64,000 nucleotides of DNA from Candidatus Planktophila limnetica (GTDB lineage: Bacteria > Actinomycetota > Actinomycetes > Nanopelagicales > Nanopelagicaceae). Under the pieces are notes generated by a model that did no database searches, was not told the origin of the DNA, and saw nothing but the letters and a program-made list of their open reading frames with translations. The translations under genes and the position numbers were made by a program. Of the stretch, positions 3,961-56,233 are shown in pieces (within the stretch, counting starts at the first letter, position 1; each line of letters opens with the position of its first letter). The DNA is taken from assembly GCF_002288365.1 (NCBI RefSeq), contig NZ_CP016782.1, forward strand, positions 868,001 to 932,000, given 5' to 3'.

Positions 3961-4083
3961 TTAGGCCTCGAAGTCGCCGCCGCGTCCTGTGATCTTTTTC
4001 TTGCTCCTTGCTGGTCGCTCGTAGGCGATCAGCAAGGCAACAAGAATGGCGGCAAAGGCACCAAAGGCTATGAACTTTTCCAT
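3961..4083 (-). CDS. 40-aa single-helix membrane protein, unknown function
   Basis: A small frame beginning MEKFIAFGAFAAILVALL. Residues 3-20 form one hydrophobic helix, followed by a basic stretch (ERPARSKKKITGRGGDFEA) predicted cytoplasmic by the positive-inside rule. It begins 8 bases after the stop of the upstream 123-aa membrane protein, so they are probably co-transcribed; there is no strong ribosome site, consistent with coupling. I do not recognise a family. The support is the clean membrane-protein composition, the tight spacing and the lack of any other gene in this gap. Confidence 0.6.
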   Translation of the reverse strand: MEKFIAFGAFAAILVALLIAYERPARSKKKITGRGGDFEA

Positions 4084-4091
4084 CTAATTAC

Positions 4092-4463
4092 TTAGAGAAC
4101 TGCCCAGACAACGAGTGCGAAGATTGCAAGGCCCAGGCCAACGATTGCAATGGCAGTAAGGGATAGAAGTTCACGTGATCCTGAGATTGTCTTAGCAAGC
4201 TTGGATGACTTATCAATTTTCTTAAGGTCAACAATTAAGGACTCTGCTTCGCGGATTGCTGCGTATTGAGAAATAATTGCAAGAATTCCTGTGGCTGCTG
4301 CAACACCAATTGTTAAGTACTTGGTGGCATCTGTTGCCATTTCAAACTTGCCGTATGCGGCTAATACAAAAACAGCGATGAGCATAAGAGTTGGTGCGAT
4401 TTGAGCATGAATAATCTGTGAACGCTTTGTGTTCCAGAGTTCTAATAGGTCCTTCTCGTTCAT
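4092..4463 (-). CDS. Small membrane protein, unknown function
   Basis: 123 residues with three hydrophobic segments (about residues 22-40, 48-68 and 100-122) and a charged stretch between the second and third. A strong ribosome site (GGGGAGAG) precedes the ATG at 4463. Directly upstream is a perfect 13-bp tandem duplication (4475-4500). No family recognised. It precedes the 40-aa one-helix protein by 8 bases, so the two could act together at the membrane. Confidence 0.75.
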   Translation of the reverse strand: MNEKDLLELWNTKRSQIIHAQIAPTLMLIAVFVLAAYGKFEMATDATKYLTIGVAAATGILAIISQYAAIREAESLIVDLKKIDKSSKLAKTISGSRELLSLTAIAIVGLGLAIFALVVWAVL

Positions 4464-6097: not shown

Positions 6098-6433
6098 ATG
6101 AGCTTTTTTCGATATAACGATCCGTTGCAGCAATTTCTTGGCGCAATAATTGCGGCTCTGATTTTCCTTGCAATTCTTAAATGGGCGTTTTCCTCTAATC
6201 AAAAGATGATTGTGTTGCCTGTAAGTGCTGGTAAAAAGGATCAATATGGGTTGTTGATTCCTATTGAATCAGCCGAGGTTAAGTTAGATATCGCTTCTGC
6301 TCAAAAACTATTGGCAGATTCTAAGATCAAAGCCACGGTGACAGATACTTATGATGGCGAGCAATTAATGGTCTTTGAAAAAGATTATCAAAAGGCTATG
6401 CGCGTATTAGGAGTTAATCCGGATCAAGTGTGA
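6098..6433 (+). CDS. Membrane-anchored small protein, unknown function
   Basis: 111 residues from the ATG at 6098; a TTG at 6092 is in frame but the spacing of the weak AGG favours the ATG. One hydrophobic helix (about residues 14-30) is followed by a soluble domain with a duplicated alternation of strands and helices (VLPVSAGKKDQYGLLIPIESAEVKLDIASAQKLLADSKIKATVTDTYDGEQLMVFEKDYQKAMRVLG reads as a beta-alpha-beta ferredoxin-like fold). No family recognised. Its 3' end overlaps the convergent DCC gene by 27 bases. Confidence 0.72.
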   Translation: MSFFRYNDPLQQFLGAIIAALIFLAILKWAFSSNQKMIVLPVSAGKKDQYGLLIPIESAEVKLDIASAQKLLADSKIKATVTDTYDGEQLMVFEKDYQKAMRVLGVNPDQV

Positions 6434-6855: not shown

Positions 6856-7320
6856 GTGCAACCAAATAAGTTAAGTGCGCTTAAGGAATTTGATGTAAAA
6901 CTCATTGGATTCTTGAATCGCGTCAGCCTGCCTGCACTTCAAATCTCACTTGGAATCATTTTTATTTGGTACGGAGCGCTTAAGATTTTCGGTGATAGCC
7001 CGGCAAATGATCTGATTACAAAGACTATTTATTGGTTTGATCCGGCCATATTTATCCCAGTCTTAGGTGTGTGGGAGATGGCAATTGGGTTGTGTCTGCT
7101 TGTTCCATCTTTTTTTCGAGTCGGACTCTTTCTGTTGGCACTGCAAATGCCAGGAACTTTCTTGCCTTTAATTTTACTTCCTGAAGTTTGTTTTCAATCT
7201 GTTCCATTTAACTTAACTCTTGAAGGCCAATACATCGTTAAAAACCTAGTTCTAATCGGTGCAGCAATAGTCGTTGGTGGCAGGCTCACTCCATTAGCCA
7301 ATAAGAAGTTAACTCCTTAA
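6856..7320 (+). CDS. DoxX/DUF417-type integral membrane protein
   Basis: 154 residues from the GTG at 6856, chosen because GGAG lies 8 bases upstream; the longer upstream open frame lacks a ribosome site and overlaps the DCC gene. Four hydrophobic segments with SLGIIFIWYGALKIFGDSPA and PVLGVWEMAIGLCLLVP resemble the DoxX-related YkgB/DUF417 family. It ends 18 bases before the photolyase-like gene, so both may be co-transcribed. Function unknown. Confidence 0.72.
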   Translation: MQPNKLSALKEFDVKLIGFLNRVSLPALQISLGIIFIWYGALKIFGDSPANDLITKTIYWFDPAIFIPVLGVWEMAIGLCLLVPSFFRVGLFLLALQMPGTFLPLILLPEVCFQSVPFNLTLEGQYIVKNLVLIGAAIVVGGRLTPLANKKLTP

Positions 7321-7338
7321 GCAGAGATTTAAAGTTAT

Positions 7339-8826
7339 ATGGCGAATAAAGAGTTGAAACGAATTATCTATATCCCCTTTGATCATCTGCATCGTAACTT
7401 TGGAGCACTAAAAGAGGCCGACCCAGCACATGATGTGATTGCCTTCGTTGAAAGTGCTCGTATGACAAGCGGGCGCAAGTGGCACACAGAACGACTCTTC
7501 TTTCTTATCTCTAGTGCCAGACACTTCGCCCGATCTCTAGAAGAAGAGGGCTTTAGGGTTGACTACATTAAGGCGCCAACAACAATTGATGGACTAAAAG
7601 TTATTTCTGACAAACACAAAGGCCTTCCGATCCTCTGCGCAGAACCGAGTTCATTTAGGCAATATGAGGCGCTTAAGAAGTACAAAGTCTCATTTGTTGA
7701 TAATGATTTCTTTCTGACTCCCCGTCCGCTCTTTAAAGAGTGGGCTGATGGTCAAAAGAATTATCTGATGGAAAATTTCTATAGAAAACAACGTGTTCGT
7801 CTCAACGTATTGATGCAGGGTAATGAGCCCGCAGGTGGCTCATGGAATTTTGATAAAGAGAACCGTCTGCCACCACCTAAAAAATATGAAGGCCCCGCAT
7901 ATCTAGAGCATGTGCGAGATGAGATTGATCAACAAGTGGCAAAAGAAATTGGGCACACCCCCACAACAACCTGGGCAACAACTCGTAAAGGTGCGCTCAA
8001 GCAATTAGCAAATTTTATTGATAACCACTTTGGCGAATTTGGTCCACTAGAAGATGCGATGACAACAGATAACTGGGCCCTTCATCACTCGCTGCTTTCT
8101 CCTTATCTCAACAATGGCCTGCTGCACGCCAGTGAAGTAATTGAGGCAGCAGTTGCTGCCTTTAATTCTGGTCGTATTCCTATTGAATCTGCTGAAGGAT
8201 TTATTCGACAAATCATTGGCTGGCGCGAATACGTCAACGGAATGTATTGGTATCTAGGCCCTGATTACAGAAACAACAATGAGTTTCACGCTAACCGCAC
8301 ACTCTTGCCACTATTTTCTGATCCTAATAAAACCCAGATGAATTGCATAAAGCAAACGGTGACTGACATTAATGAGCGCGCGTGGGTGCACCACATCCCG
8401 CGCCTAATGCTTTTGTCTAATCTTGCATTAGTCACCGGCACTAATCCGCAAGAATTTCTTGATTGGATGCGCGAAGTTTTTATTGATGCCTCCGATTGGG
8501 TAATGGTTCCAAATGTTATTGGTATGGGACTACATGCAGATGGCGGAGCGATGATGACAAAGCCATATGCAGCAGGGGGTGCATATATTTCTAGAATGTC
8601 TAACTATTGCAAGGGATGTGTCTATAACCCCAAGCTGCGAGTTGGAGATGATGCATGTCCATTTACGACGCTCTATTGGGATTTTCTAGATCGTTACAAA
8701 GAAGAGTTTGCCAAAAACCATCGCATGAGCCAACAAGTATTTGGACTTAAGCGTCTAAGTGATCTGCCTGAATTAAAGGTGCGTGCGCAGCAAGTGCTTA
8801 CGGGGCTGGAGCAAGGAAAGATTTAA
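7339..8826 (+). CDS. Iron-sulfur cryptochrome/photolyase-related protein (PhrB/FeS-BCP type)
   Basis: 495 residues, the usual size of the prokaryotic 6-4 photolyase/cryptochrome group. The N-terminal Rossmann-like antenna domain starts KRIIYIPFDHLHRNFGALKEADP. The C-terminal FAD domain carries RQIIGWREYVNGMYWY, NERAWVHHIPRLMLLSNLAL and VMVPNVIGMGLHADGG. Four cysteines (MNC, YCKGC and DDACPF) match the four ligands of the 4Fe-4S cluster that defines this group. Expected role: light-driven repair of UV lesions, or blue-light sensing. The DUF2256 gene at 4575 belongs to the same recurrent genomic neighbourhood. Ribosome site weak. Confidence 0.92.
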   Translation: MANKELKRIIYIPFDHLHRNFGALKEADPAHDVIAFVESARMTSGRKWHTERLFFLISSARHFARSLEEEGFRVDYIKAPTTIDGLKVISDKHKGLPILCAEPSSFRQYEALKKYKVSFVDNDFFLTPRPLFKEWADGQKNYLMENFYRKQRVRLNVLMQGNEPAGGSWNFDKENRLPPPKKYEGPAYLEHVRDEIDQQVAKEIGHTPTTTWATTRKGALKQLANFIDNHFGEFGPLEDAMTTDNWALHHSLLSPYLNNGLLHASEVIEAAVAAFNSGRIPIESAEGFIRQIIGWREYVNGMYWYLGPDYRNNNEFHANRTLLPLFSDPNKTQMNCIKQTVTDINERAWVHHIPRLMLLSNLALVTGTNPQEFLDWMREVFIDASDWVMVPNVIGMGLHADGGAMMTKPYAAGGAYISRMSNYCKGCVYNPKLRVGDDACPFTTLYWDFLDRYKEEFAKNHRMSQQVFGLKRLSDLPELKVRAQQVLTGLEQGKI

Positions 8827-8872
8827 CAGCGCTTTAACTCTGCATTAACGCTTGGATACAGGAGTTTTGTAA

Positions 8873-8894
8873 CCTGTGAATACCCTGTGAATAC
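8873..8894 (+). repeat. 11-bp perfect tandem repeat upstream of the fasciclin gene
   Basis: cctgtgaatac occurs twice in immediate succession (8873-8883, 8884-8894), about 107 bases before the start codon at 9001. The spacing of one helical turn suits a paired regulator or duplicated sigma-factor element. The rest of 8827-9000 shows nothing else clear. Confidence 0.55.
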
Positions 8895-9000
8895 TTTGAT
8901 TCCCGCATATTTCAAGGGTGTGTGCAGTGATTTCAAGTTGCCCGTCATTCTGGCCCCACTTAATCTTCCATGGAAGAAAACCCAAACAAAGGAGATAGGT

Positions 9001-9552
9001 ATGAAGCTTGTGCGCCCTGATGCATTTGCTGCAATTGCCGTCGCATTGGCGTTGACACTGTCAGCATGCGGAAGCGATTCAGAAGAGTCAATGGAAACAG
9101 CGACAGAAGAAACAAGTGTTGGAACAATCGTTGATGTAGCAATTGGAGCAGGAAACTTCGGAACTCTCGTGGCCGCAGTAACAGCTGCAGATTTGGTTGA
9201 AACACTCAGCGGAGCAGGACCATTTACAGTCTTCGCACCAACAGATGAAGCATTTGCGGCGCTGCCTGCAGGTGTTCTAGATGCACTTTTATTGCCAGAG
9301 AACAAAGCAACTCTTGCAAAGATTCTTACCTACCACGTTGTTTCTGGACAGGTAATGGCCGCTGATGTAACAGATGGTGATGTTGCAACAGTAGAAGGAC
9401 AAACAATCAAGCTATCAACAATGGATGGCGTCAGCGTTAATGGTGCCAAAGTTGTTGCAGCAGATGTTGCAGCTTCAAATGGTGTAATTCACGCTATCGA
9501 TGCAGTAATTCTTCCACCTGATGTCGATGTAGCAAAGTTACTTAAGAAGTAA
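9001..9552 (+). CDS. Fasciclin (FAS1) domain lipoprotein
   Basis: 183 residues from the ATG at 9001, preceded by a strong AAAGGAG. Signal peptide with lipobox LSAC puts the lipidated cysteine at residue 23; a Ser/Glu/Thr linker follows; then one FAS1 domain: [53 protein letters not shown] and [13 protein letters not shown] are the classic H1/YH/H2 segments. Such proteins act in extracellular adhesion (compare the MPT83/MPT70 type of actinobacteria). Monocistronic, with its own terminator. Confidence 0.93.
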
Positions 9553-9574
9553 TATTTAAGTAATTACGCAAGTA

Positions 9575-9611
9575 AAGGCCACCTCAAATCTTGGGGTGGC
9601 CTTCACTTTTT
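9575..9611 (+). terminator. Terminator after the fasciclin gene
   Basis: 11-bp stem (9575-9585 with 9593-9603, arm aaggccacctc, one G-T pair), 7-nt loop, then a T-run at 9607-9611. Confidence 0.9.
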
Positions 9612-9646
9612 CAACAGCTTTGTAGCAAAAATGAAATTGAGAAGAG

Positions 9647-10555
9647 TTAATCAAGTGCTGCTAACCTTTTTTCTAACTCTGCATAGGCGCTAAGAAATTC
9701 AGGGCTAGCAATCTCAGATTTCCAGCGTCCACTCGTTGCAGCCTGTGGAGTGAGCTCTGTTTCAAAGAAAGCGCGCATGGCCGGATCATCTTGTAGGCCA
9801 AGAAATGTAAGTAGTGCTTGATAGCTCTGCTCTCGATTGTTGATGGCTAGATCTTCTAACGCAATCGTGATCTGTTGCTTGGCTGGGATTGTGCGCAGTG
9901 CGTGGTGTGCATCGATTAGACGCTTTTGAATCCACTCAATTCCTTCTAGCGGCGTAGTTGGTCCCCAATTTTTTGTCAGTAGCGACGCAATCACATCTCG
10001 TGGATCTCGAACCATGTTGATGAAAAGCGCGTTAGGAAAGATTTTAAGGATTCGCTCTGCTTGGGCAATATTTAAAGGTGTGGTTTCCACCCAATACTTT
10101 TGGCCACGATGTGCCGCTTGGGATGAAATAAAGTTGCGCATGAACCTGCGCGCAGCCCACACTCGATTAATTCGAAGCTCAAAGATCAAAGTGGCAAGAA
10201 GTTTTTCTAATTGCTTCTTGGTAATTCCTGACTGTAATCCGCGTCCATGTGGCGGCGGGGCGTCTATATCCCACCAGGTATTCCAGATGCGATCTAAGAA
10301 CTCAACTTGAATCTTCTTAAACTTCTCGCGTTTTCTCTTGTATCTGCGAAGCCGAGAACGAAGGTCTAGGAGAGCAATTTTCTTTTCAATATCAGGTGTG
10401 TCTCGTCCAAAAACTAATTGCAGCAAGCCAGATTTATTAGCCAGAAATTTAATCTCAATCGGAACACTCGTTCTGATGTCTTGATGAAGACCCAACAGAT
10501 CGCCCACAACAGTTGTGCCGCTGCGCCCCGTACCCCCCACAAAAACAGGCTTCAT
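9647..10555 (-). CDS. Sulfotransferase family protein
   Basis: 302 residues. The 5'-phosphosulfate loop FVGGTGRSGTTVVGDLLG is at residues 4-21 and the 3'-phosphate-binding segment MVRDPRDVIASLL in the middle (near residue 180), the two PAPS-contacting motifs of the Sulfotransfer_3 type. It transfers sulfate from PAPS to an unknown acceptor, possibly a carbohydrate or lipid. The central basic region (RSRLRRYKRKREKFKK) is notable. Divergent from a second sulfotransferase with only 51 bases between them. The enzymes making PAPS are encoded 2 kb away. Confidence 0.9.
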   Translation of the reverse strand: MKPVFVGGTGRSGTTVVGDLLGLHQDIRTSVPIEIKFLANKSGLLQLVFGRDTPDIEKKIALLDLRSRLRRYKRKREKFKKIQVEFLDRIWNTWWDIDAPPPHGRGLQSGITKKQLEKLLATLIFELRINRVWAARRFMRNFISSQAAHRGQKYWVETTPLNIAQAERILKIFPNALFINMVRDPRDVIASLLTKNWGPTTPLEGIEWIQKRLIDAHHALRTIPAKQQITIALEDLAINNREQSYQALLTFLGLQDDPAMRAFFETELTPQAATSGRWKSEIASPEFLSAYAELEKRLAALD

Positions 10556-23991: not shown

Positions 23992-23997
23992 AAAAAG

Positions 23998-24054
23998 AAC
24001 AGGACTAAGAATCGGTATCGCAAGAAGTACTGCAATACCGATTCTTAGCCTGTT
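23998..24054 (-). terminator. Intercistronic hairpin between the HAAT binding protein and LivM-like gene
   Basis: A 14-bp perfect stem (24005-24018 with 24035-24048), one bulged base, then 6 more base pairs (23998-24003 with 24049-24054), around a 16-nt loop. TTCTTTTT follows on the minus strand and runs into the GTG of the next gene, so it resembles a leaky terminator. Confidence 0.8.
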
Positions 24055-24075
24055 TTTTATTATTTTGGTTTTACC

Positions 24076-25275
24076 TTACTGCTTCTTTGCGCATTCGTAA
24101 GGAGCGATAGTTCCTAGCTTCTTTACGATGGTATTTGAACCGTCGGCATTTGACTTACCGAGGTACATAGGCAAATTAAGGTGCTTTGTGCCTGGTGCAA
24201 AGGAAACAGGTCCACCGATTGATTGCTTCAGTGAAATTGAATCCATTGCCTTATTTACCTTTGCAGTATCGAAGGACCCTGCCTTTTCAACTGCTGCTTT
24301 CCATAGGTAAATACTGCGATACCAAGCAGGTGCGTTAAATGTTGCAGAGAACAAACCTGCAGCTTCTGGATGTTGCTTGTTGAACTTAGCAACAGTTGCC
24401 TTTGTGAATGGATCTGTAACAGGAAGATAGAAATCCTGTACACCGATCAAACCTTCGGCTTGCTTTCCAATGATTGGGTTAATGCCCTCATCAAAGAGTG
24501 TTCCAGCAATTGTTCCCTTATATCCGCCATCAACAACACCCTTAATAAATGGTCCTGTTCCTGGAAGAACGACAACTTCAAAGAGAGCATCAGCCTTTGA
24601 AGCAAGAACCTTGCTCACTAGGTTTGATGCATCTGTCATATCAAGTGGAACATATTCTTCGCCAACGATTGAACCGCCACCGGCAAGAACTACCTGACGA
24701 ACACGAGCAAGAATGTTACGTGGGTACAGATAATCACTTCCTGCTAAGAAGAAGGTCTTCTTTCCAAGTGAAAGAAGGTGCTTAACAGTTGGGTCTACCT
24801 GTTGGTTTGGTGCAGAACCTGTGTTCCAGACGTTATTGCTGCACTCGTTGCCTTCATATGATGCTGGCCAGATGTATAGAGTCTTGCCGCGCTTTGCAAT
24901 CACGTCGCGAATTGCAACGCGTGTAAAGCTAGCAACGCCACCGACAACAACAGCAACCTTGTCTTGGTTGACTAGCTTGCTTGCAACCTGAGTTGCAACT
25001 GCTGGATCTGTAGCACTATCTGCCAAAACCATTTCAAGTTTGCGGCCAAGAACGCCACCACTTTTATTGATTTCATTGATTGTGAACTGAGCAACAGCCT
25101 TGTTGGATTTTCCAACAATTCCGAATGCACCAGTCATATCTGTAAGCACACCAATTTTCACTGTCTGTGCTGCTTGCGCAGGAGCAAACGTCAAAGCGCC
25201 GAGCATTGCAACAGCAGATGCCAGGATCGCAGTGTTGCGACGAGTACTTCCCTTCTTGAATATGTTCTTATTCAT
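24076..25275 (-). CDS. HAAT-type substrate-binding protein (urea/short-chain amide family)
   Basis: 399 residues from the ATG at 25275, which has GGGAGAG upstream and begins the signal peptide MNKNIFKKGSTRRNTAILAS...; the cleavage site is near PAQAA-QTV and there is no lipobox. KIGVLTDMTGAFGIVGKSN, GGVLGRKLEMVLADSATDP and SYEGNECSNNVWNTGSAPNQQ place it in the periplasmic-binding family 6 with UrtA/AmiC/FmdD-like members; the YEG...TGSAPNQQ segment is typical of the urea/amide subgroup. A strong hairpin follows the gene. Confidence 0.85.
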   Translation of the reverse strand: MNKNIFKKGSTRRNTAILASAVAMLGALTFAPAQAAQTVKIGVLTDMTGAFGIVGKSNKAVAQFTINEINKSGGVLGRKLEMVLADSATDPAVATQVASKLVNQDKVAVVVGGVASFTRVAIRDVIAKRGKTLYIWPASYEGNECSNNVWNTGSAPNQQVDPTVKHLLSLGKKTFFLAGSDYLYPRNILARVRQVVLAGGGSIVGEEYVPLDMTDASNLVSKVLASKADALFEVVVLPGTGPFIKGVVDGGYKGTIAGTLFDEGINPIIGKQAEGLIGVQDFYLPVTDPFTKATVAKFNKQHPEAAGLFSATFNAPAWYRSIYLWKAAVEKAGSFDTAKVNKAMDSISLKQSIGGPVSFAPGTKHLNLPMYLGKSNADGSNTIVKKLGTIAPYECAKKQ

Positions 25276-25348
25276 TTCTCTCCCTATTACTATTTCGTTT
25301 GTTTTGAACAGGACTTGCTTGATTACATGAATTAAATTCACTGTGAAC

Positions 25349-26206
25349 TTATCGCCCCCTCTGGAAAATACCGACTGGGCGAAAGCGCATGAAGATGATT
25401 GCCAAAAGGACAACCAAAATTTGTCCAGTTACTGGACTAATAAATTGACCAAGGACCGCACCTGGCACGGCAATTAACGCAGCACCTGCAAGTGGCCCAC
25501 CAAATTGACCAAGCCCGCCGATCATCACCGCGATAAACATCAGGATCAAGTTGTCGTATCCTAAATTTGGATAAAGCGTTTGCAGGGGCACAATCATTGC
25601 GCCTGCAAAACCAGAGAGCGCAGAACCAACGGCATATGTTCCGGCATACATCCACTTAGTAGAAATACCTGAAACAGATACTAACTCTGGGTTATCAAGA
25701 GTGGCTCGAACTTTCATTCCAAGATTCGTTTTTAGCAATATCAAGCCGATAGCAATTGCAAGGAGCAATGTGACGACCATGATCACGATGCGCCAGACAG
25801 GAAGGCTTGCACCCCCGATATCTATTGAGGATTGAATCGGAGCATCAACAGGTGATGATTGTGTGGACATTCTTGTGCGAAGTGACTCGCGCATAATCAA
25901 ACCAATTGCGAATGTTGCAAGCAGGGCGCCCTGCGGGTTTACATAAAAACGATGAATGATTGTTCGCTCAAGGAGCAAGCCAAAGAGTCCCACAACTATT
26001 GGGGCAAGAATGATTCCAATCCACAAATTATCTAGGTACTTGCCACATAGAAAGGCTGTGACAGCGCCAAGTAAAACCAACTCGCCTTGGCACATGTTAA
26101 ATACCTTCATCATGCCCACGATAATTGCCATTCCAATTACCAAAAGAATCAAAACTGACGAAAGACTTAAAACGTCAAAGATTCCGCGGATAACTGTTGG
26201 GCTCAT
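25349..26206 (-). CDS. HAAT-type ABC transporter permease (LivH/UrtB-like)
   Basis: 285 residues, about eight hydrophobic helices. MKVFNMCQGELVLLGAVTAF is the LivH/UrtB N-terminal signature and VRATLDNPELVSVSGISTKWMYAGTYAVG the cytoplasmic loop. GAAGGGC precedes the ATG. It begins 5 bases after the HDAC-family hydrolase stop and comes before the binding protein, so transcription reads hydrolase, permease, binding protein, permease, two ATPases. Confidence 0.9.
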   Translation of the reverse strand: MSPTVIRGIFDVLSLSSVLILLVIGMAIIVGMMKVFNMCQGELVLLGAVTAFLCGKYLDNLWIGIILAPIVVGLFGLLLERTIIHRFYVNPQGALLATFAIGLIMRESLRTRMSTQSSPVDAPIQSSIDIGGASLPVWRIVIMVVTLLLAIAIGLILLKTNLGMKVRATLDNPELVSVSGISTKWMYAGTYAVGSALSGFAGAMIVPLQTLYPNLGYDNLILMFIAVMIGGLGQFGGPLAGAALIAVPGAVLGQFISPVTGQILVVLLAIIFMRFRPVGIFQRGR

Positions 26207-32152: not shown

Positions 32153-33038
32153 GGGTATCCCCCAGCACTCGGCGATTCACACGCGCCTGAATAAAGAAGA
32201 GTGCGCAGAGCATGACGACCATTGATAGTGCCATTACCGAACCAAATGGCCAATCGCGTGCTTTTAAGAATTGATCTCTGATTAAGTTACCGACCATAAT
32301 CGTTTTGCCGCCACCTAATAATTCAGGAACGATAAAGTTTCCAACACTTGGAACAAAGACGAAAATCGCACCGATTAATACACCTGGTAGCGCTAATGGA
32401 AGTGTTACTTGTCTAAATGCTTGGGCAGGAGTTGCACCGAGATTAATTGCTGCCTCTTTCATCGCAGGGTCAATGCGCACAAGGGATGAATAAATCGGCA
32501 AGATCATCAGTGGGATATATGCATAAAGCAAACCTAAAACAATTGCACTGGGCTTATATAAAAGCTCTAAAGGCTGGCTAATTACTCCCATATTGATTAG
32601 GCCCTTATTAAGAAAACCTTGGGTGTTAAGGAGAACGATCCATGCGTATGTGCGAATTAGAAAGTTTGTCCAAAATGGCAAAACAATGAGCACCAGCATG
32701 ATGTTCTGACGATTCGTTGGCAATTTAGTAATTGCGTATGCAACAGGAAAACCGATAAGAAAAGCCAGAAGTGTGGCTGCTCCTGCAATCAAAATTGATT
32801 TAACTAAAACACCGATATAGAGCGAATCAAGAGCACGGGTGTAATTTTCAAAGGTAAAGATGAATTCGACTCCGCCATAGGTGCCACGGGATAAGAATGT
32901 GTAGGCGATGATGAAACCAAGCGGGATTAACATAAACGCGGTGATGTATGTAAGGCCCGGGACTAAGAAGATGGCGCGCGAAAGAAGAGCGCGACGCTTG
33001 ATTGCGTCGCGCCCTTCTGACTTAACCGCTAGAGCCAT
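32145..33038 (-). CDS. potB: Polyamine-type ABC transporter permease (PotB-like), second system
   Basis: 297 residues, six helices, EAA loop KEAAINLGATPAQAFRQVTLP. The N-terminus (MALAVKSEGRDAIKRRALLSR) is encoded by a stretch that also forms a strong 15-bp hairpin at 32983-33018, within codons 7-19. The gene starts only 17 bases after the binding-protein stop, so this hairpin takes the position occupied in other operons by an intergenic one. Confidence 0.9.
   Translation of the reverse strand: MALAVKSEGRDAIKRRALLSRAIFLVPGLTYITAFMLIPLGFIIAYTFLSRGTYGGVEFIFTFENYTRALDSLYIGVLVKSILIAGAATLLAFLIGFPVAYAITKLPTNRQNIMLVLIVLPFWTNFLIRTYAWIVLLNTQGFLNKGLINMGVISQPLELLYKPSAIVLGLLYAYIPLMILPIYSSLVRIDPAMKEAAINLGATPAQAFRQVTLPLALPGVLIGAIFVFVPSVGNFIVPELLGGGKTIMVGNLIRDQFLKARDWPFGSVMALSMVVMLCALFFIQARVNRRVLGDTRA
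32983..33018 (-). promoter_or_regulatory. Coding-embedded 15-bp hairpin at the start of potB (second system)
   Basis: gcgcgacgc (32989-32997) pairs with gcgtcgcgc (33004-33012) over 9 bp with a 6-nt loop; after one mismatch, five more pairs follow (32983-32987 with 33014-33018). It covers codons 7-19 of potB, directly downstream of the potD stop. Confidence 0.65.
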
Positions 33039-33055: not shown

Positions 33056-34153
33056 TTACTTGGCCGTTACTTCAGTGGCAATGCGCGTATAAAGCGCAGA
33101 AGCCTTTCCGAGGTCAACAAGTGCTTCATTCTTTAGGAGCTCTGCTGGAGTAATACCCATATTTGGGAACCCTTCAACAAGTGCTGGCAAGGACTTTTCC
33201 ATAGCTGGAACGTTAGGAACCTTGTAAAGAATGTTGTCGACTACCCATGAGTGAACATCCTTATCAAGGATGTGGTTAAGGAATGCGTGTGCTGCTTCCT
33301 TATTCTTCGAAGTCTTCAGAATGACCATAACATCAGTAAATAGATCTGAGCCTTCTGTTGGAACAACGAACTTAATGTTCTTGTTCTCAGCAATTCCATA
33401 GTTACACCATCCATCCCAGGCTTCAACCATTACGGCTTCACCGGAAACCAGGCGTGTATAGAAAGTAGTGTCATCGTAGGCAAGAAGGTTTGACTTCGCT
33501 TTAACAAGAAGGTCCTTGACCTTGCCCATTTCAGCTTCGTCCTGAGTATTAGCAGAAAAACCAAGAGCCTTCTGTGCTGGAAGCATTAACCAACGCTCAG
33601 TAGCAAGCATTGTTACTTTGCCCTTGTACTGTGGCTTAGGCATCAACAAATCATTCCAACTTGTTGGCTCGTTGCCCTTCATTAAGTCTGCGCGATAGCA
33701 AATACCTGTTGTACCCCATGAGTAAGGCATTGAGTACTTGTTGCCTGGGTCAAAAGCGAGTTTTGCAGCTTCTGGATAGAGGTTTGCTTCATTAGGAATA
33801 AGTGACTTATCCAAAGTTTCGATCAAACCTTGCGCAGCGAGTGCTTGTGCAAATTGACCAGAAACGAATGCAATGTCAATTCCAGAATCTCCACCTGCTG
33901 TGAGCTTGGCCATGATTTCTTCATTGGTTGCGTGGTTAGTAATTGTTACCTTAGTTCCAAATTTTTCTTCAAACTTTGCAGGCAAATCATCTGGGTTGTA
34001 TGCAGCCCAGTTGCTGACAGTTAACGTTTGCAAGCTGAGATCTGCATTTGGATCAAGTGCAGTCTCACCTGAATCTGAACTGCTACAAGCAGATAGTGCT
34101 AGCACAAGGCCAGCGATAGCCGTTGTGGCTGCTGCTTTGCGTGAAATTCTCAT
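33056..34153 (-). CDS. potD: Polyamine-type substrate-binding lipoprotein (PotD-like), second system
   Basis: 365 residues. Signal with lipobox LSAC, lipidated Cys at residue 23. The body begins LQTLTVSNWAAYNPDDLPAKFEEKFGTKVTITNHATNEE, the PotD/PotF pattern; MPYSWGTTGICYRADLMKG and GEAVMVEAWDGWCNYG are also typical. GAGAGGAAC precedes the ATG, behind a 7-bp leader hairpin (34172-34190). First gene of potD-potB-potC-potA-aldehyde dehydrogenase. Substrate probably putrescine, judged by the aldehyde dehydrogenase at the end. Confidence 0.9.
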   Translation of the reverse strand: MRISRKAAATTAIAGLVLALSACSSSDSGETALDPNADLSLQTLTVSNWAAYNPDDLPAKFEEKFGTKVTITNHATNEEIMAKLTAGGDSGIDIAFVSGQFAQALAAQGLIETLDKSLIPNEANLYPEAAKLAFDPGNKYSMPYSWGTTGICYRADLMKGNEPTSWNDLLMPKPQYKGKVTMLATERWLMLPAQKALGFSANTQDEAEMGKVKDLLVKAKSNLLAYDDTTFYTRLVSGEAVMVEAWDGWCNYGIAENKNIKFVVPTEGSDLFTDVMVILKTSKNKEAAHAFLNHILDKDVHSWVVDNILYKVPNVPAMEKSLPALVEGFPNMGITPAELLKNEALVDLGKASALYTRIATEVTAK

Positions 34154-44259: not shown

Positions 44260-45987
44260 ATGAGACGCTCTAGAACGCTCGTATCTCTCATCGCCCTGAG
44301 CTTTGTTCTCAGTGCATGCGGTAGCTCGAGTTCTGACAGTGGTTCAGATTCAAATGCTCAAGGTCAAGAAGGTGTACTTGCACCTTATGACGCATCAAAA
44401 GCTGGTGGAACATTAACTCTCGTTGCAAAAGGTGCAGCTGGAACTCTTGATCCACACATTAACTACACACTTCAATTCTGGCAGCTATACCAGGCAACTT
44501 ACGATGGTCTACTTGCATTTAGAAAAGTAGATGGTCCTAAGTCATTTGAAACTGTTCCTGACTTAGCAGAAGCTCTACCAGAACTTAGTGATGGTGGAAA
44601 GACACTTACATTTACATTGCGTAAGGGAATTAAGTTCTCAGATGGTCGCGATGTAACAGTTAATGATGTTAAAGCATCATTTGAACGAATCTTCAAAGTT
44701 TCTTCACCAACAGCCGGTGGTTTCTATAACGGTATCGTGGGCGCAGATGCATGTTTGGCTAAGCCAGCAACTTGTAAACTCGATCAAGGTGTAGTCGTTG
44801 ATGAAGCAACAAATAAGATTGTGATTAATTTGACTGCACCAGATGCAACAATTAATTACAAGCTTTCGTTGCCACACGCAGTGATCCTTCCTGCTGATGC
44901 TCCATCAAAGGATGCGGGTACAACTCCAATTCCTACAACAGGTCCTTACATGTTTGCATCCTATGATCCAAACAAGGAACTTAAGATGGTCCGTAATCCA
45001 AACTTCACAGAGTGGAACCGCGAATCACAGCCAGCTGGTTATCCTGATGAAATCGTTTACCAATTCGGCCTAACAGCTGAAGCTCAGGTAAATGCGATCA
45101 AGAATGGCCAAGCTGACTGGATGCTCGATCCAATTCCTGCTGACCGTTTGTCTGAAATCGGTACAGAGCTTCCAAATCAAATCAATGTTCACACATTGAC
45201 AGCGATGTGGTACTTGCCAATGAATAACAACTTGGCACCATTTGATAACGTCAAAGCACGTCAGGCTGTTAACTACGCACTTGACCGCAATGCAATGGTA
45301 AAGATCTTCGGTGGAGAACAACTTGCATCCCCTGCATGTACATTCTTGCCACCTGGATTCCCAGGGCACAAGGACTTCTGCCAGTACACAGCAGGTGCTT
45401 CAGTTGAATCTCCAGCAGCAAGTTGGTCTGCGCCAGATCTTGAAAAGGCAAAGCAACTCGTTAAGGAGTCAGGCACAGCTGGCCAAAAGGTTGGCGTTGT
45501 TGTCTCTGATGATGAAGTGAATAAGCAGATGGGTGAGTACGTACAAAGCGTTCTTAACCAGATTGGTTACAAGGCAACCTTGAAGCCAATTTCAAGCAAC
45601 ATTCAATTCACATACATTCAGAACACAAAGAACAAGGTTCAAATCTCGGTATCCCAGTGGTATCAAGATTTCCCAGCAGCGATGGACTTCTCGTACATCT
45701 TGCTCGGTTGTGAATCATTTACACCTGGTTCAGATTCATCTATCAACATGGCTGGTTATTGCAACAAAGCACTTAACAAGCGCATGATCGATGCAATGGA
45801 TCTAGGCGTAACAGATCAAGCAGCTGCTGATAAAGAGTGGGGCGAAATTGATCAAGCGATCATGAATGAAGCTCCAGTTGCTGTGGCCTTTACTCCAAAG
45901 CAGATTGACTTCTTGTCTGCTCGTGTAAAGAACTACAACTTCTCTAAGCAGTTCTACATGTTGGTTAGCCAACTGCAGGTCAAGTAA
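44260..45987 (+). CDS. Peptide/oligopeptide-type ABC substrate-binding lipoprotein
   Basis: 575 residues. Signal with lipobox LSAC at Cys20, then a Ser/Asp-rich linker. The family-5 pattern is seen: GTLTLVAKGAAGTLDPHINYTLQFWQLYQATYDGLLAF and TLTFTLRKGIKFSDGRDVTVNDVKASFERI, ending VKNYNFSKQFYMLVSQLQVK. A very good GGAGGA precedes the ATG at 44260. First gene of an Opp/Dpp operon; the permease starts 4 bases after the stop. Substrate could be peptides, nickel or other small ligands. Confidence 0.92.
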   Translation: MRRSRTLVSLIALSFVLSACGSSSSDSGSDSNAQGQEGVLAPYDASKAGGTLTLVAKGAAGTLDPHINYTLQFWQLYQATYDGLLAFRKVDGPKSFETVPDLAEALPELSDGGKTLTFTLRKGIKFSDGRDVTVNDVKASFERIFKVSSPTAGGFYNGIVGADACLAKPATCKLDQGVVVDEATNKIVINLTAPDATINYKLSLPHAVILPADAPSKDAGTTPIPTTGPYMFASYDPNKELKMVRNPNFTEWNRESQPAGYPDEIVYQFGLTAEAQVNAIKNGQADWMLDPIPADRLSEIGTELPNQINVHTLTAMWYLPMNNNLAPFDNVKARQAVNYALDRNAMVKIFGGEQLASPACTFLPPGFPGHKDFCQYTAGASVESPAASWSAPDLEKAKQLVKESGTAGQKVGVVVSDDEVNKQMGEYVQSVLNQIGYKATLKPISSNIQFTYIQNTKNKVQISVSQWYQDFPAAMDFSYILLGCESFTPGSDSSINMAGYCNKALNKRMIDAMDLGVTDQAAADKEWGEIDQAIMNEAPVAVAFTPKQIDFLSARVKNYNFSKQFYMLVSQLQVK

Positions 45988-45991
45988 GTAG

Positions 45992-47008
45992 ATGACTACG
46001 CACGAACCAGCGTTCGATCTCTCTTCGGAGAGTCCGGGCAAAATTGCCCTCCGAACGCTGGTTCGTGATCGTAGATCATGGGTTGCGTCAACGATGTTGG
46101 TCATCGTTGTCGCACTTACCCTGGCTGCTCCGCTGTACGCCTCCCTCGTTTCAAAGACTGATCCATTTGTTTCAACCATTAACGGAACCGTTGTCTTAGA
46201 TGGTGTTGAAGTTCAGGTTTTACAACAATCAACTGAAGGACTCAGACTTGGTGTTAATCCGATTGGTCCTACATGGAAAATTGGTCCTTACTTTTTAGGC
46301 GCCGATAATCAAGGTCGCGACGTCGCAGCACGCTTGTTATATGGCGGCACAAATACTCTATTAATCGGATTTTCAGCCGCGGCTCTGACTTTGATTGTTG
46401 CAACAATCGTTGGTGTTATCGCTGGCTATTCAGGAAAAATTATTGACTCTGTTATCTCTCGAATTTTAGATGTGATTTGGGCATTTCCAGTTTATTTACT
46501 CTCAATTTCACTCTCAGTTGTGCTTCTTACAAGCGGATTTAAATGGGGCCCGCTTTCGCTAGAAGCAGGCTCACTCTATTTACCAATATTTATTATCGGT
46601 CTTGTCTATGTGCCATACGTAGCACGCCCAATTCGCGGGCAAGTATTAGCTCTACGTGAACGTGAGTTTGTAAAGGCTGCAATCGGTGGCGGTGCGAAGA
46701 ATTCAACAATTATCTTTCGTGAAATCTTGCCTAACGTAATTCCCAGCGTTTTAGTCTTTATCCCTTTGATGGTTTCTCTTGCCATGCTTACTGAATCAGC
46801 ACTCTCCTTCTTATCTATTGGTGTTCAGCCACCAGATGCTTCATGGGGCACGATTATTAAAGATGGTCTTGGACTTCTATACACGCGACCAATAGTTGCT
46901 CTGACTCCGGGTCTTTTCATCGTTATTACTGCTGTCTCACTTAACTTACTAGGTGACGCCGTACGCGATGCACTCGATCCAAAAGCTCGTCTGCGTGGTG
47001 CATTTTGA
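45992..47008 (+). CDS. Opp/Dpp-type ABC permease (DppC-like)
   Basis: 338 residues. N-terminal SPGKIALRTLVRDRRSW is the OppC_N motif, then six helices and the loop VKAAIGGGAKNSTIIFREILPN. The first 25 codons lie on an RNA structure (46001-46067) with a 16-bp outer stem. The order here is DppC-like before DppB-like, the reverse of many systems. Coupled by TTGA overlap to the next permease. Confidence 0.9.
   Translation: MTTHEPAFDLSSESPGKIALRTLVRDRRSWVASTMLVIVVALTLAAPLYASLVSKTDPFVSTINGTVVLDGVEVQVLQQSTEGLRLGVNPIGPTWKIGPYFLGADNQGRDVAARLLYGGTNTLLIGFSAAALTLIVATIVGVIAGYSGKIIDSVISRILDVIWAFPVYLLSISLSVVLLTSGFKWGPLSLEAGSLYLPIFIIGLVYVPYVARPIRGQVLALREREFVKAAIGGGAKNSTIIFREILPNVIPSVLVFIPLMVSLAMLTESALSFLSIGVQPPDASWGTIIKDGLGLLYTRPIVALTPGLFIVITAVSLNLLGDAVRDALDPKARLRGAF
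46001..46067 (+). promoter_or_regulatory. Coding-embedded three-way RNA junction at the start of the DppC-like gene
   Basis: Outer stem: 46001-46016 (cacgaaccagcgttcg) pairs perfectly with 46052-46067 over 16 bp. Inside it are two hairpins: CTCTC-TTCG-GAGAG (46019-46032), a C(UUCG)G tetraloop, and GGGCA-AAAT-TGCCC (46036-46049). The start codon lies 9 bases upstream. Likely controls or protects mRNA between binding protein and permease. Confidence 0.75.
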
Positions 47009-55205: not shown

Positions 55206-55251
55206 TAAAACAAGGCCCTTACCCAGTGAGTTCCACCGAGTAAGGGCCTTG
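55206..55251 (-). terminator. Terminator/hairpin after the glycine-betaine binding protein
   Basis: CAAGGCCCTTAC (55211-55222) and its complement (55240-55251) make a perfect 12-bp stem; inner bases continue it to 18 bp with two wobble pairs and a 5-nt loop. A T-rich tail (TTTTATT) follows on the minus strand. Confidence 0.85.
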
Positions 55252-55270
55252 CTTCTTAGGATGTTTTTAC

Positions 55271-56233
55271 TTACTTACCAAGCCATGAAGCAACAGTGTC
55301 AGGATTAGCAGCAATCCACTTCTTCGCTGCTTCTTCTGCTGTCATTCCGCCTTCAAGATCGGCTGCTACACCATTTTGATCAGCATTAGTCCACGAGAAG
55401 TTCTTTACAAGTGAAGTAAATGAATCATTAGCATCGTTGAGCTTCTTAGAGATCAACTTCTGAAGTGGTGTTGATGGGTAGTCAGTTAAACCACTTGCCG
55501 CTGCTGGATCGCTCCAGTCATTAGCAGGGAACTTAACGCGAGCTGCCTCAAGTGTTGGAAGCTTTGAGTGAAGTGTCCAAGGCTGCCATGCATAACCAAT
55601 AAATGGTGTCTTGTTAGCTTCAGCCTTAAGGAAACCGTCAACTAGAGCAGCTTCTGAACCAGAGAAGATAACTTTGAAGTTTAACTTGTTAGCAGAAACC
55701 ATCTTTTCACCGACGGTTGTGTAACCAGTTGGGCCTTCAAACCATGCACCCTTGCCACCTGAATCTGCAGTCTTAAACATGGCTGCATACTTGTTCAAGT
55801 TCTTTGAATCAGTGATGTCTGGATACTTTTCAACCATCCATGGAGCGACATACATACCGATAATTCCAATGTTTCCGTTTTCGCCAGCTTCAACTACAGC
55901 TCCGCGATCAGCCCACTCCTGCCAGCGTCCGCCGCCCCAATCTTCGATAAGGACATCGATAGTTCCGGCTTCCATTGCGTCATAAGTGACTGGACCTTCT
56001 TCTAGAGTTGTCTGAGTAATTGTGCAACCCAATTCTTGCTTTGCAACTTCTGCAAGAACCTGTGCTGAAGCTGTGTAACCGCCCCATGCGTGCATTGCGA
56101 TTGCGTAAGAACCGCATTCTCCTGATCCTTCGCTTGCAGAATCATTAACGCTGCTGCTACAACCTGAAAGGACTAGCGCTGTTGCAATTGCTGCGGTAGC
56201 AAGTGCCGAACGGCGACCGAGTAGTGATTTCAT
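55271..56233 (-). CDS. proX: Glycine betaine-type ABC substrate-binding lipoprotein
   Basis: 320 residues. Lipobox LSGC, lipidated Cys at residue 25. The OpuAC-type core: EDWGGGRWQEWADRGAVVEAGENGNIGIIGMYVAPWMVE and FIGYAWQPWTLHSKLP carry the tryptophans that cage quaternary amines. GGAGGG precedes the ATG at 56233. It is placed after the permease and before choline dehydrogenase, and is followed by a strong terminator. Confidence 0.9.
   Translation of the reverse strand: MKSLLGRRSALATAAIATALVLSGCSSSVNDSASEGSGECGSYAIAMHAWGGYTASAQVLAEVAKQELGCTITQTTLEEGPVTYDAMEAGTIDVLIEDWGGGRWQEWADRGAVVEAGENGNIGIIGMYVAPWMVEKYPDITDSKNLNKYAAMFKTADSGGKGAWFEGPTGYTTVGEKMVSANKLNFKVIFSGSEAALVDGFLKAEANKTPFIGYAWQPWTLHSKLPTLEAARVKFPANDWSDPAAASGLTDYPSTPLQKLISKKLNDANDSFTSLVKNFSWTNADQNGVAADLEGGMTAEEAAKKWIAANPDTVASWLGK

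Follow-up and report, generated by a model that had tools for sequence, protein, structure and literature searches.

The oppA-oppC junction and its hairpin

The window, that is, the whole 64,000-nt stretch of DNA analysed in this work, belongs to a single-contig genome of 1.33 Mb, and its closest named relatives in sequence searches are Planktophila/acI actinobacteria. The acI actinobacteria (Nanopelagicales) are major freshwater bacteria, transporter-driven in their way of life and with very compact genomes. On the forward strand, the window contains a gene for an OppA-type solute-binding lipoprotein (SBP_bac_5; 44260-45987; Pfam PF00496, E 2.2e-74), followed by an OppC/DppC-type permease gene (BPD_transp_1; 45992-47008; Pfam PF00528, E 1.4e-26) whose best NCBIfam match is Opp4C, with a score under the cut-off of that model. 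The oppA stop codon ends at 45987 and oppC starts at 45992, leaving a gap of 4 nt, and the open frames downstream of oppC read as another permease and ATPases. The close proximity of the oppA end, on which the original prediction made no comment, is the key to the context of the structure described below. Genes were called mechanically as the longest open frames, and their start codons are accordingly uncertain. Of 82 orthologous loci, 79 have a solute-binding protein (SBP) gene at most 150 nt upstream of oppC, and a search of viral contigs for OppC relatives found none.

The first 30 codons of oppC harbor a strong hairpin, with a main stem of 16 perfect base pairs between 46001-46016 (codons 4-9) and 46052-46067 (codons 21-26), both arms being supported by fold and covariation. 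This stem encloses two predicted 5-bp hairpins, one at 46019-46032 with a UUCG loop and the other at 46036-46049, and in the fold it is prolonged by an outer helix in which 45992-46000, corresponding to codons 1-3, pairs with 46070-46079; the ATG is thus paired, and the helix contains a 1-nt bulge and a 2-nt interruption. The region 46001-46067 has a minimum free energy of -42.7 kcal/mol and a z value of -8.4, which is approximate given the few shuffles used, and none of the 200 shuffled sequences folded equally well. Therefore, the original prediction of a perfect 16-bp stem with two inner hairpins, unlikely to arise by chance, was borne out, with the correction that the structure spans codons 4-26 rather than 4-25. 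It lies within the lowest-energy 100-nt stretch of the 64 kb (-52.6, against a mean of -21.2 and a standard deviation of 5.3). The reverse strand folds well too at this site (-42.2), so the strand is not chosen by fold strength alone. The main stem is followed by AUCGUAGAUCAUGGG, which contains no U-tract; a terminator scan returned none at the 3' end of the stem and no T-run after 46067 or 46079, and a sequence scan found no promoter-like site at the hairpin.

Selection on the RNA and changes of register

When the first 35 codons of the window oppC were recoded synonymously according to the codon usage of the gene itself, none of 300 recodings was as stable as the natural sequence (z -6.9), and the fold is therefore explained neither by the amino-acid sequence nor by the base composition. 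The same test was extended to orthologs, collapsing identical loci from different collections, and z values ranged from -3.2 to -9.2 across the distinct Nanopelagicaceae orthologs tested. In these, only the first 105 nt carried the signal: their z values averaged -4.85, and 22 of 23 orthologs fell below -3 there, as opposed to 0 of 251 later windows. Streptomyces-type orthologs (60-66% identity) displayed a weaker, clear effect, with 15/37 first windows below -3 and 2/406 later ones. Among 26 orthologs with less than 60% identity, mostly from Mycobacterium (45-49%), the first window reached -3 in a single case, with a mean close to zero; the Mycobacterium-type orthologs have an SBP gene upstream, yet no hairpin in oppC.

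Synonymous changes were depleted in the stem. In the Planktophila trio, the synonymous difference rate was 0.056 in stem codons versus 0.44 elsewhere (p 4.7e-7), and in genera g4 and g8 it was 0.16 versus 0.59 (p 1.6e-8), p values that overstate the evidence since the ortholog sequences are related and not independent. Wobble positions overlapping the hairpin showed enhanced conservation, and the synonymous sites of the stem are frozen within clades while they change in a compensating manner between clades. The ortholog alignment that had been suggested as a check thus revealed both depletion and compensation, in agreement with the proposal that the same bases serve protein and RNA. The oppC hairpin is under selection as RNA.

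Pairing partners were further compared by register, defined as the sum i+j of the two offsets relative to the first base of the start codon. The register i+j=84 is shared by the window and its relatives, with longest unbroken runs of 10-21 bp; in this register both sides have changed in 12 of 23 pairs, and the covariation amounts to 0.307, compared with 0.177 after shuffling and no more than 0.106 when the structure was slid. Genera g4 and g8 use the register i+j=79, with an unbroken 18-bp stem formed by codons 7-21 that leaves the start codon outside; here all cells (100%) are paired in 10 species, two pairs are doubly changed and two G-U pairs are kept. A palindrome acting at the DNA level is disfavoured by these fixed G-U pairs, which fit RNA. 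The sequence and fold of oppC in the Streptomyces locus L071 show a 20-bp stem at about codons 16-34.

The inner architecture is also variable. Both inner hairpins of the window, and with them the three-way junction that the original prediction had put forward as the functional feature, are limited to the three closest genomes (L001, L025 and L028), the other clades having a plain long hairpin, and the junction was thus rejected as a unit. As pairs, register and inner architecture all vary, what is kept is the hairpin as such: the conserved feature is a strong hairpin at this site, which has been rebuilt through register changes.

Hairpins at the ends of SBP genes

Five SBP genes were recognised in the window, and each is followed by a prominent hairpin (5/5). 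Apart from oppA, they lie on the reverse strand. The hairpin after the PotD-like SBP gene (33056-34153) has a 15-bp stem at 32983-33018, embedded in the early codons of potB, and it is conserved in other genera (L220-L222), where the stem reaches roughly 17 bp or more and is longer in genus g4. The remaining hairpins predicted by folding are intergenic: a 20-bp hairpin at 1579-1625 after the YdcS-like SBP gene (1645-2811), another at 23992-24061 after the UrtA-like SBP gene (24076-25413), and one at 55208-55254 between the OpuAC-type choline SBP gene (55271-56233) and betA.

For every gene with a co-directional next gene, the RNA downstream of the stop codon was then folded. This covered the window and 11 stretches picked because they surround further permease genes of this genome, controls being taken from the same stretches; the generality of the result rests on this permease-centred sample and not on every gene. 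SBPs were assigned by Pfam, and hairpins were considered exceptional at z <= -4.5. Among the 124 co-directional junctions, 14 of 16 SBP junctions reached this cut-off, compared with 1 of 108 others (Fisher p 1.6e-15), with median z values of -7.3 (n=16) and -0.32 (n=108), respectively (Mann-Whitney p 3.7e-10). The association of hairpins with the ends of SBP genes is thus nearly constant in this sample, and it was likewise found in the sister genome G185, with 7/8 SBP junctions and 2/64 others at or below the cut-off.

The place of the hairpin follows the space available. With gaps of at least 80 nt the hairpin is intergenic, and with gaps of less than 30 nt it lies inside the next coding sequence, as in oppC, potB, the permease in L146, the potA-like gene in L140 and the livG-like gene in L143. 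For most of the other SBP genes sampled, the hairpin falls in the intergenic gap and does not reach the next start codon. The position tracks the end of the upstream SBP gene, at its stop codon; the tie to the start of the permease itself that the original prediction implied is not what these hairpins have in common. Hairpins embedded in coding sequences lack clear U-tracts. Some of the intergenic ones carry short U stretches (UrtA, OpuAC and PstS), and the PstS junction, which misses the z cut-off, has a hairpin with a clear U-tract that resembles an ordinary terminator.

The single non-SBP match (L137) was a gene for a secreted-looking protein with no Pfam match. At this locus (7012-9959, forward strand), an SBP gene runs at its 3' end 4 nt into this second gene; no hairpin occurs directly after the SBP gene and a strong one follows the second gene, which suggests that both are handled as a single unit. 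This SBP gene and that of PstS are the two that miss the cut-off. One of the two non-SBP matches in G185 (L214) is also secreted-looking, has no Pfam match and adjoins permease genes. An apparently non-SBP gene in G185 (L209, 293-1459, forward strand) has a strong hairpin past its stop codon (z -7.1) that the SBP rule does not explain.

In a Streptomyces genome, the SBP_bac_1 junctions showed a weak shift (median z -1.0 versus -0.1 and -0.25), a weakness that perhaps stems in part from mechanical ORF picking, which is unreliable in GC-rich DNA. A few of these junctions were very strong (L204, -9.4; L192, -6.0). Very strong SBP_bac_1 hairpins were observed at L204, L192, L191 and L206, and in three of these four the gap is below 10 nt, so that the hairpin falls in the next gene.

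Whether all this amounts to a general rule we consider an evenly balanced matter: the SBP-end hairpin may be near-obligatory in every SBP-led ABC operon of these streamlined freshwater actinobacteria, being rewritten into the next coding sequence when the gap is lost to genome compaction, where it would constrain N-terminal codons and residues and be rebuilt in new registers without loss, in the manner of a genome-wide stoichiometry code and not of scattered single cases. No description of such SBP-end hairpin use in Actinobacteria was found within the literature searched. If the rule is true, SBP-to-permease ratios would be predictable from sequence, and an excess of SBP transcripts in metatranscriptomes need not imply separate regulation. 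Furthermore, it would explain the oddly conserved N-terminal codons of permeases and ATPases, and would supply numerous independent examples in which coding sequence is overwritten by RNA structure, register switches included.

Proposed function of the oppC hairpin and comparison with known systems

The common denominator of these hairpins is the distance from the SBP stop codon and not from the permease start, which makes the SBP message the likely beneficiary. We therefore regard it as probable that the oppC hairpin is an mRNA-stabilising 3' hairpin of the upstream SBP cistron, raising the amount of SBP over that of the permease. Its place within the permease coding sequence would follow from the gap of only 4 nt between the genes, and the part it would protect is the 3' end of the mRNA of 44260-45987. 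In the proposed mechanism, oppA, oppC and the genes that follow would be transcribed as a single mRNA, which would undergo an endonucleolytic cut and then 3' to 5' decay of its permease part; a long GC-rich hairpin without a U-tract would halt the exonuclease, the oppA message would persist, and SBP would accumulate in excess over permease. Ribosomes translating oppC would have to unfold the hairpin. In acI bacteria, SBP transcripts have been reported at up to 411 times the median, a comparison made with the median and not with the permease (PMC5574706).

The oppC hairpin shares its features with the protective hairpins described within coding sequences of E. coli (Dar and Sorek 2018, PMC5927463): it is stable and located just 3' of an upstream cistron, that cistron encodes an SBP, the hairpin occupies the coding sequence that follows and has no U-tract, and the overlapping wobble positions are conserved. 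Of 26 protective hairpins in E. coli, 17 are situated inside the coding sequence of the downstream gene and lack U-tracts, and the ABC gene stabilised by differential decay is always that of the SBP (PMC5927463). The two cases differ in that the E. coli hairpins lie about 107 nt into the coding sequence whereas the one studied here begins in the first codons, and in that here the host is an actinobacterium, nearly every sampled SBP operon is involved and the register switches between genera; moreover, decay was measured in E. coli, while here it is proposed on the basis of sequence analysis. The malE-malF hairpin (Newbury et al. 1987, as summarised in PMC5927463) similarly stands between an SBP gene and the first permease gene; in that summary it is intergenic, whereas the oppC hairpin is inside the permease coding sequence. 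In operons subject to selective RNA processing and stabilisation (SRPS; PMC8219983, PMC4423207), a stem-loop on the 3' side of a cistron fixes the stoichiometry of the operon, as proposed here for a hairpin recognised by sequence analysis. The kind of element is thus already known, and its near-universal use and the register switching are new.

An internal partial terminator or attenuator after the SBP gene, at which some polymerases would stop and leave more SBP than permease transcript, is an unlikely alternative. It would share gene position and outcome with the ABC importers of cellulolytic Clostridia, where a stem-loop with a long GC-rich stem follows most SBP genes and, in R. cellulolyticum, U-poor hairpins with long stems act as internal terminators (PMC9045158); termination may also contribute at the intergenic hairpins with short U stretches described above. 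However, the oppC hairpin does not combine its GC-rich stem with a U-tract as intrinsic terminators do, the scan at its 3' end was negative, the other hairpins embedded in coding sequences have no clear U-tracts either, and at a gap of 4 nt ribosomes would be expected to trail the polymerase closely. The Clostridia hairpins work as terminators from an intergenic position and carry (weak) U-tracts, and a short-gap SBP gene there (a 24-bp example) showed no transcript drop (PMC9045158), whereas here short gaps shift the hairpin into the coding sequence. The lack of a U-tract thus favours stabilisation over termination.

Translational control of oppC, in which the start codon would be hidden and translation coupled to ribosomes finishing oppA, with less permease as a result, appears distinctly unlikely as the primary role. 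In the window and its closest relatives, the ATG does take part in the pairing at the foot of the stem, the gap is 4 nt, and many orthologs have GTG or TTG starts. Nevertheless, the g4/g8 stem leaves the start codon free and most SBP hairpins of the genome are intergenic, so start-codon pairing is not the conserved part, and sequestration of the start codon as the sole role was rejected as a common denominator. As a secondary effect it is probably real: since the hairpin covers the oppC start codon too, its pairing probably lowers oppC translation as well, and poor translation should add to the imbalance that mRNA protection would produce.

A ligand- or protein-binding regulatory RNA, of the riboswitch type and sensing peptide or nitrogen status through the three-way junction, is highly improbable; the window sequence does have a complex topology with a UUCG-capped arm, but the junction does not occur beyond the closest genomes, neither the register nor the loops are conserved, and an Rfam search of the window gave only one tRNA above threshold and nothing, riboswitch or leader, at the oppC hairpin. 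Inverted repeats can also originate as coincidences, mobile palindromes or assembly artefacts, an origin with practically no remaining likelihood here, as it is refuted by the recoding test, the confinement to the first window, the covariation with compensating changes and the frozen synonymous sites, together with the occurrence in independent assemblies and many species and the gap-free alignment of the encoded residues to orthologs.

Some further hairpins were observed during the analysis. In L143, at about 4000-4120 on the reverse strand, the early codons of the livG-like ATPase gene, which follows an SBP gene after a gap of 6 nt, form a stem of 15 bp (CCGTGGCTGACATCA/TGATGTCAGCCACGG) capped by a 4-nt loop. 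In L146, at about 6330-6400 on the reverse strand, a hairpin (TTGGCGACCATGACAGAG...CTCTGCGTGGTCGCCAAG) extends over the likely start codon of the permease gene linked to an SBP_bac_3 gene. Finally, positions 3961-4060 of the window fold strongly (-45.4 kcal/mol), with a 13-bp stem (CCTTGCTGGTCGC/GCGATCAGCAAGG).
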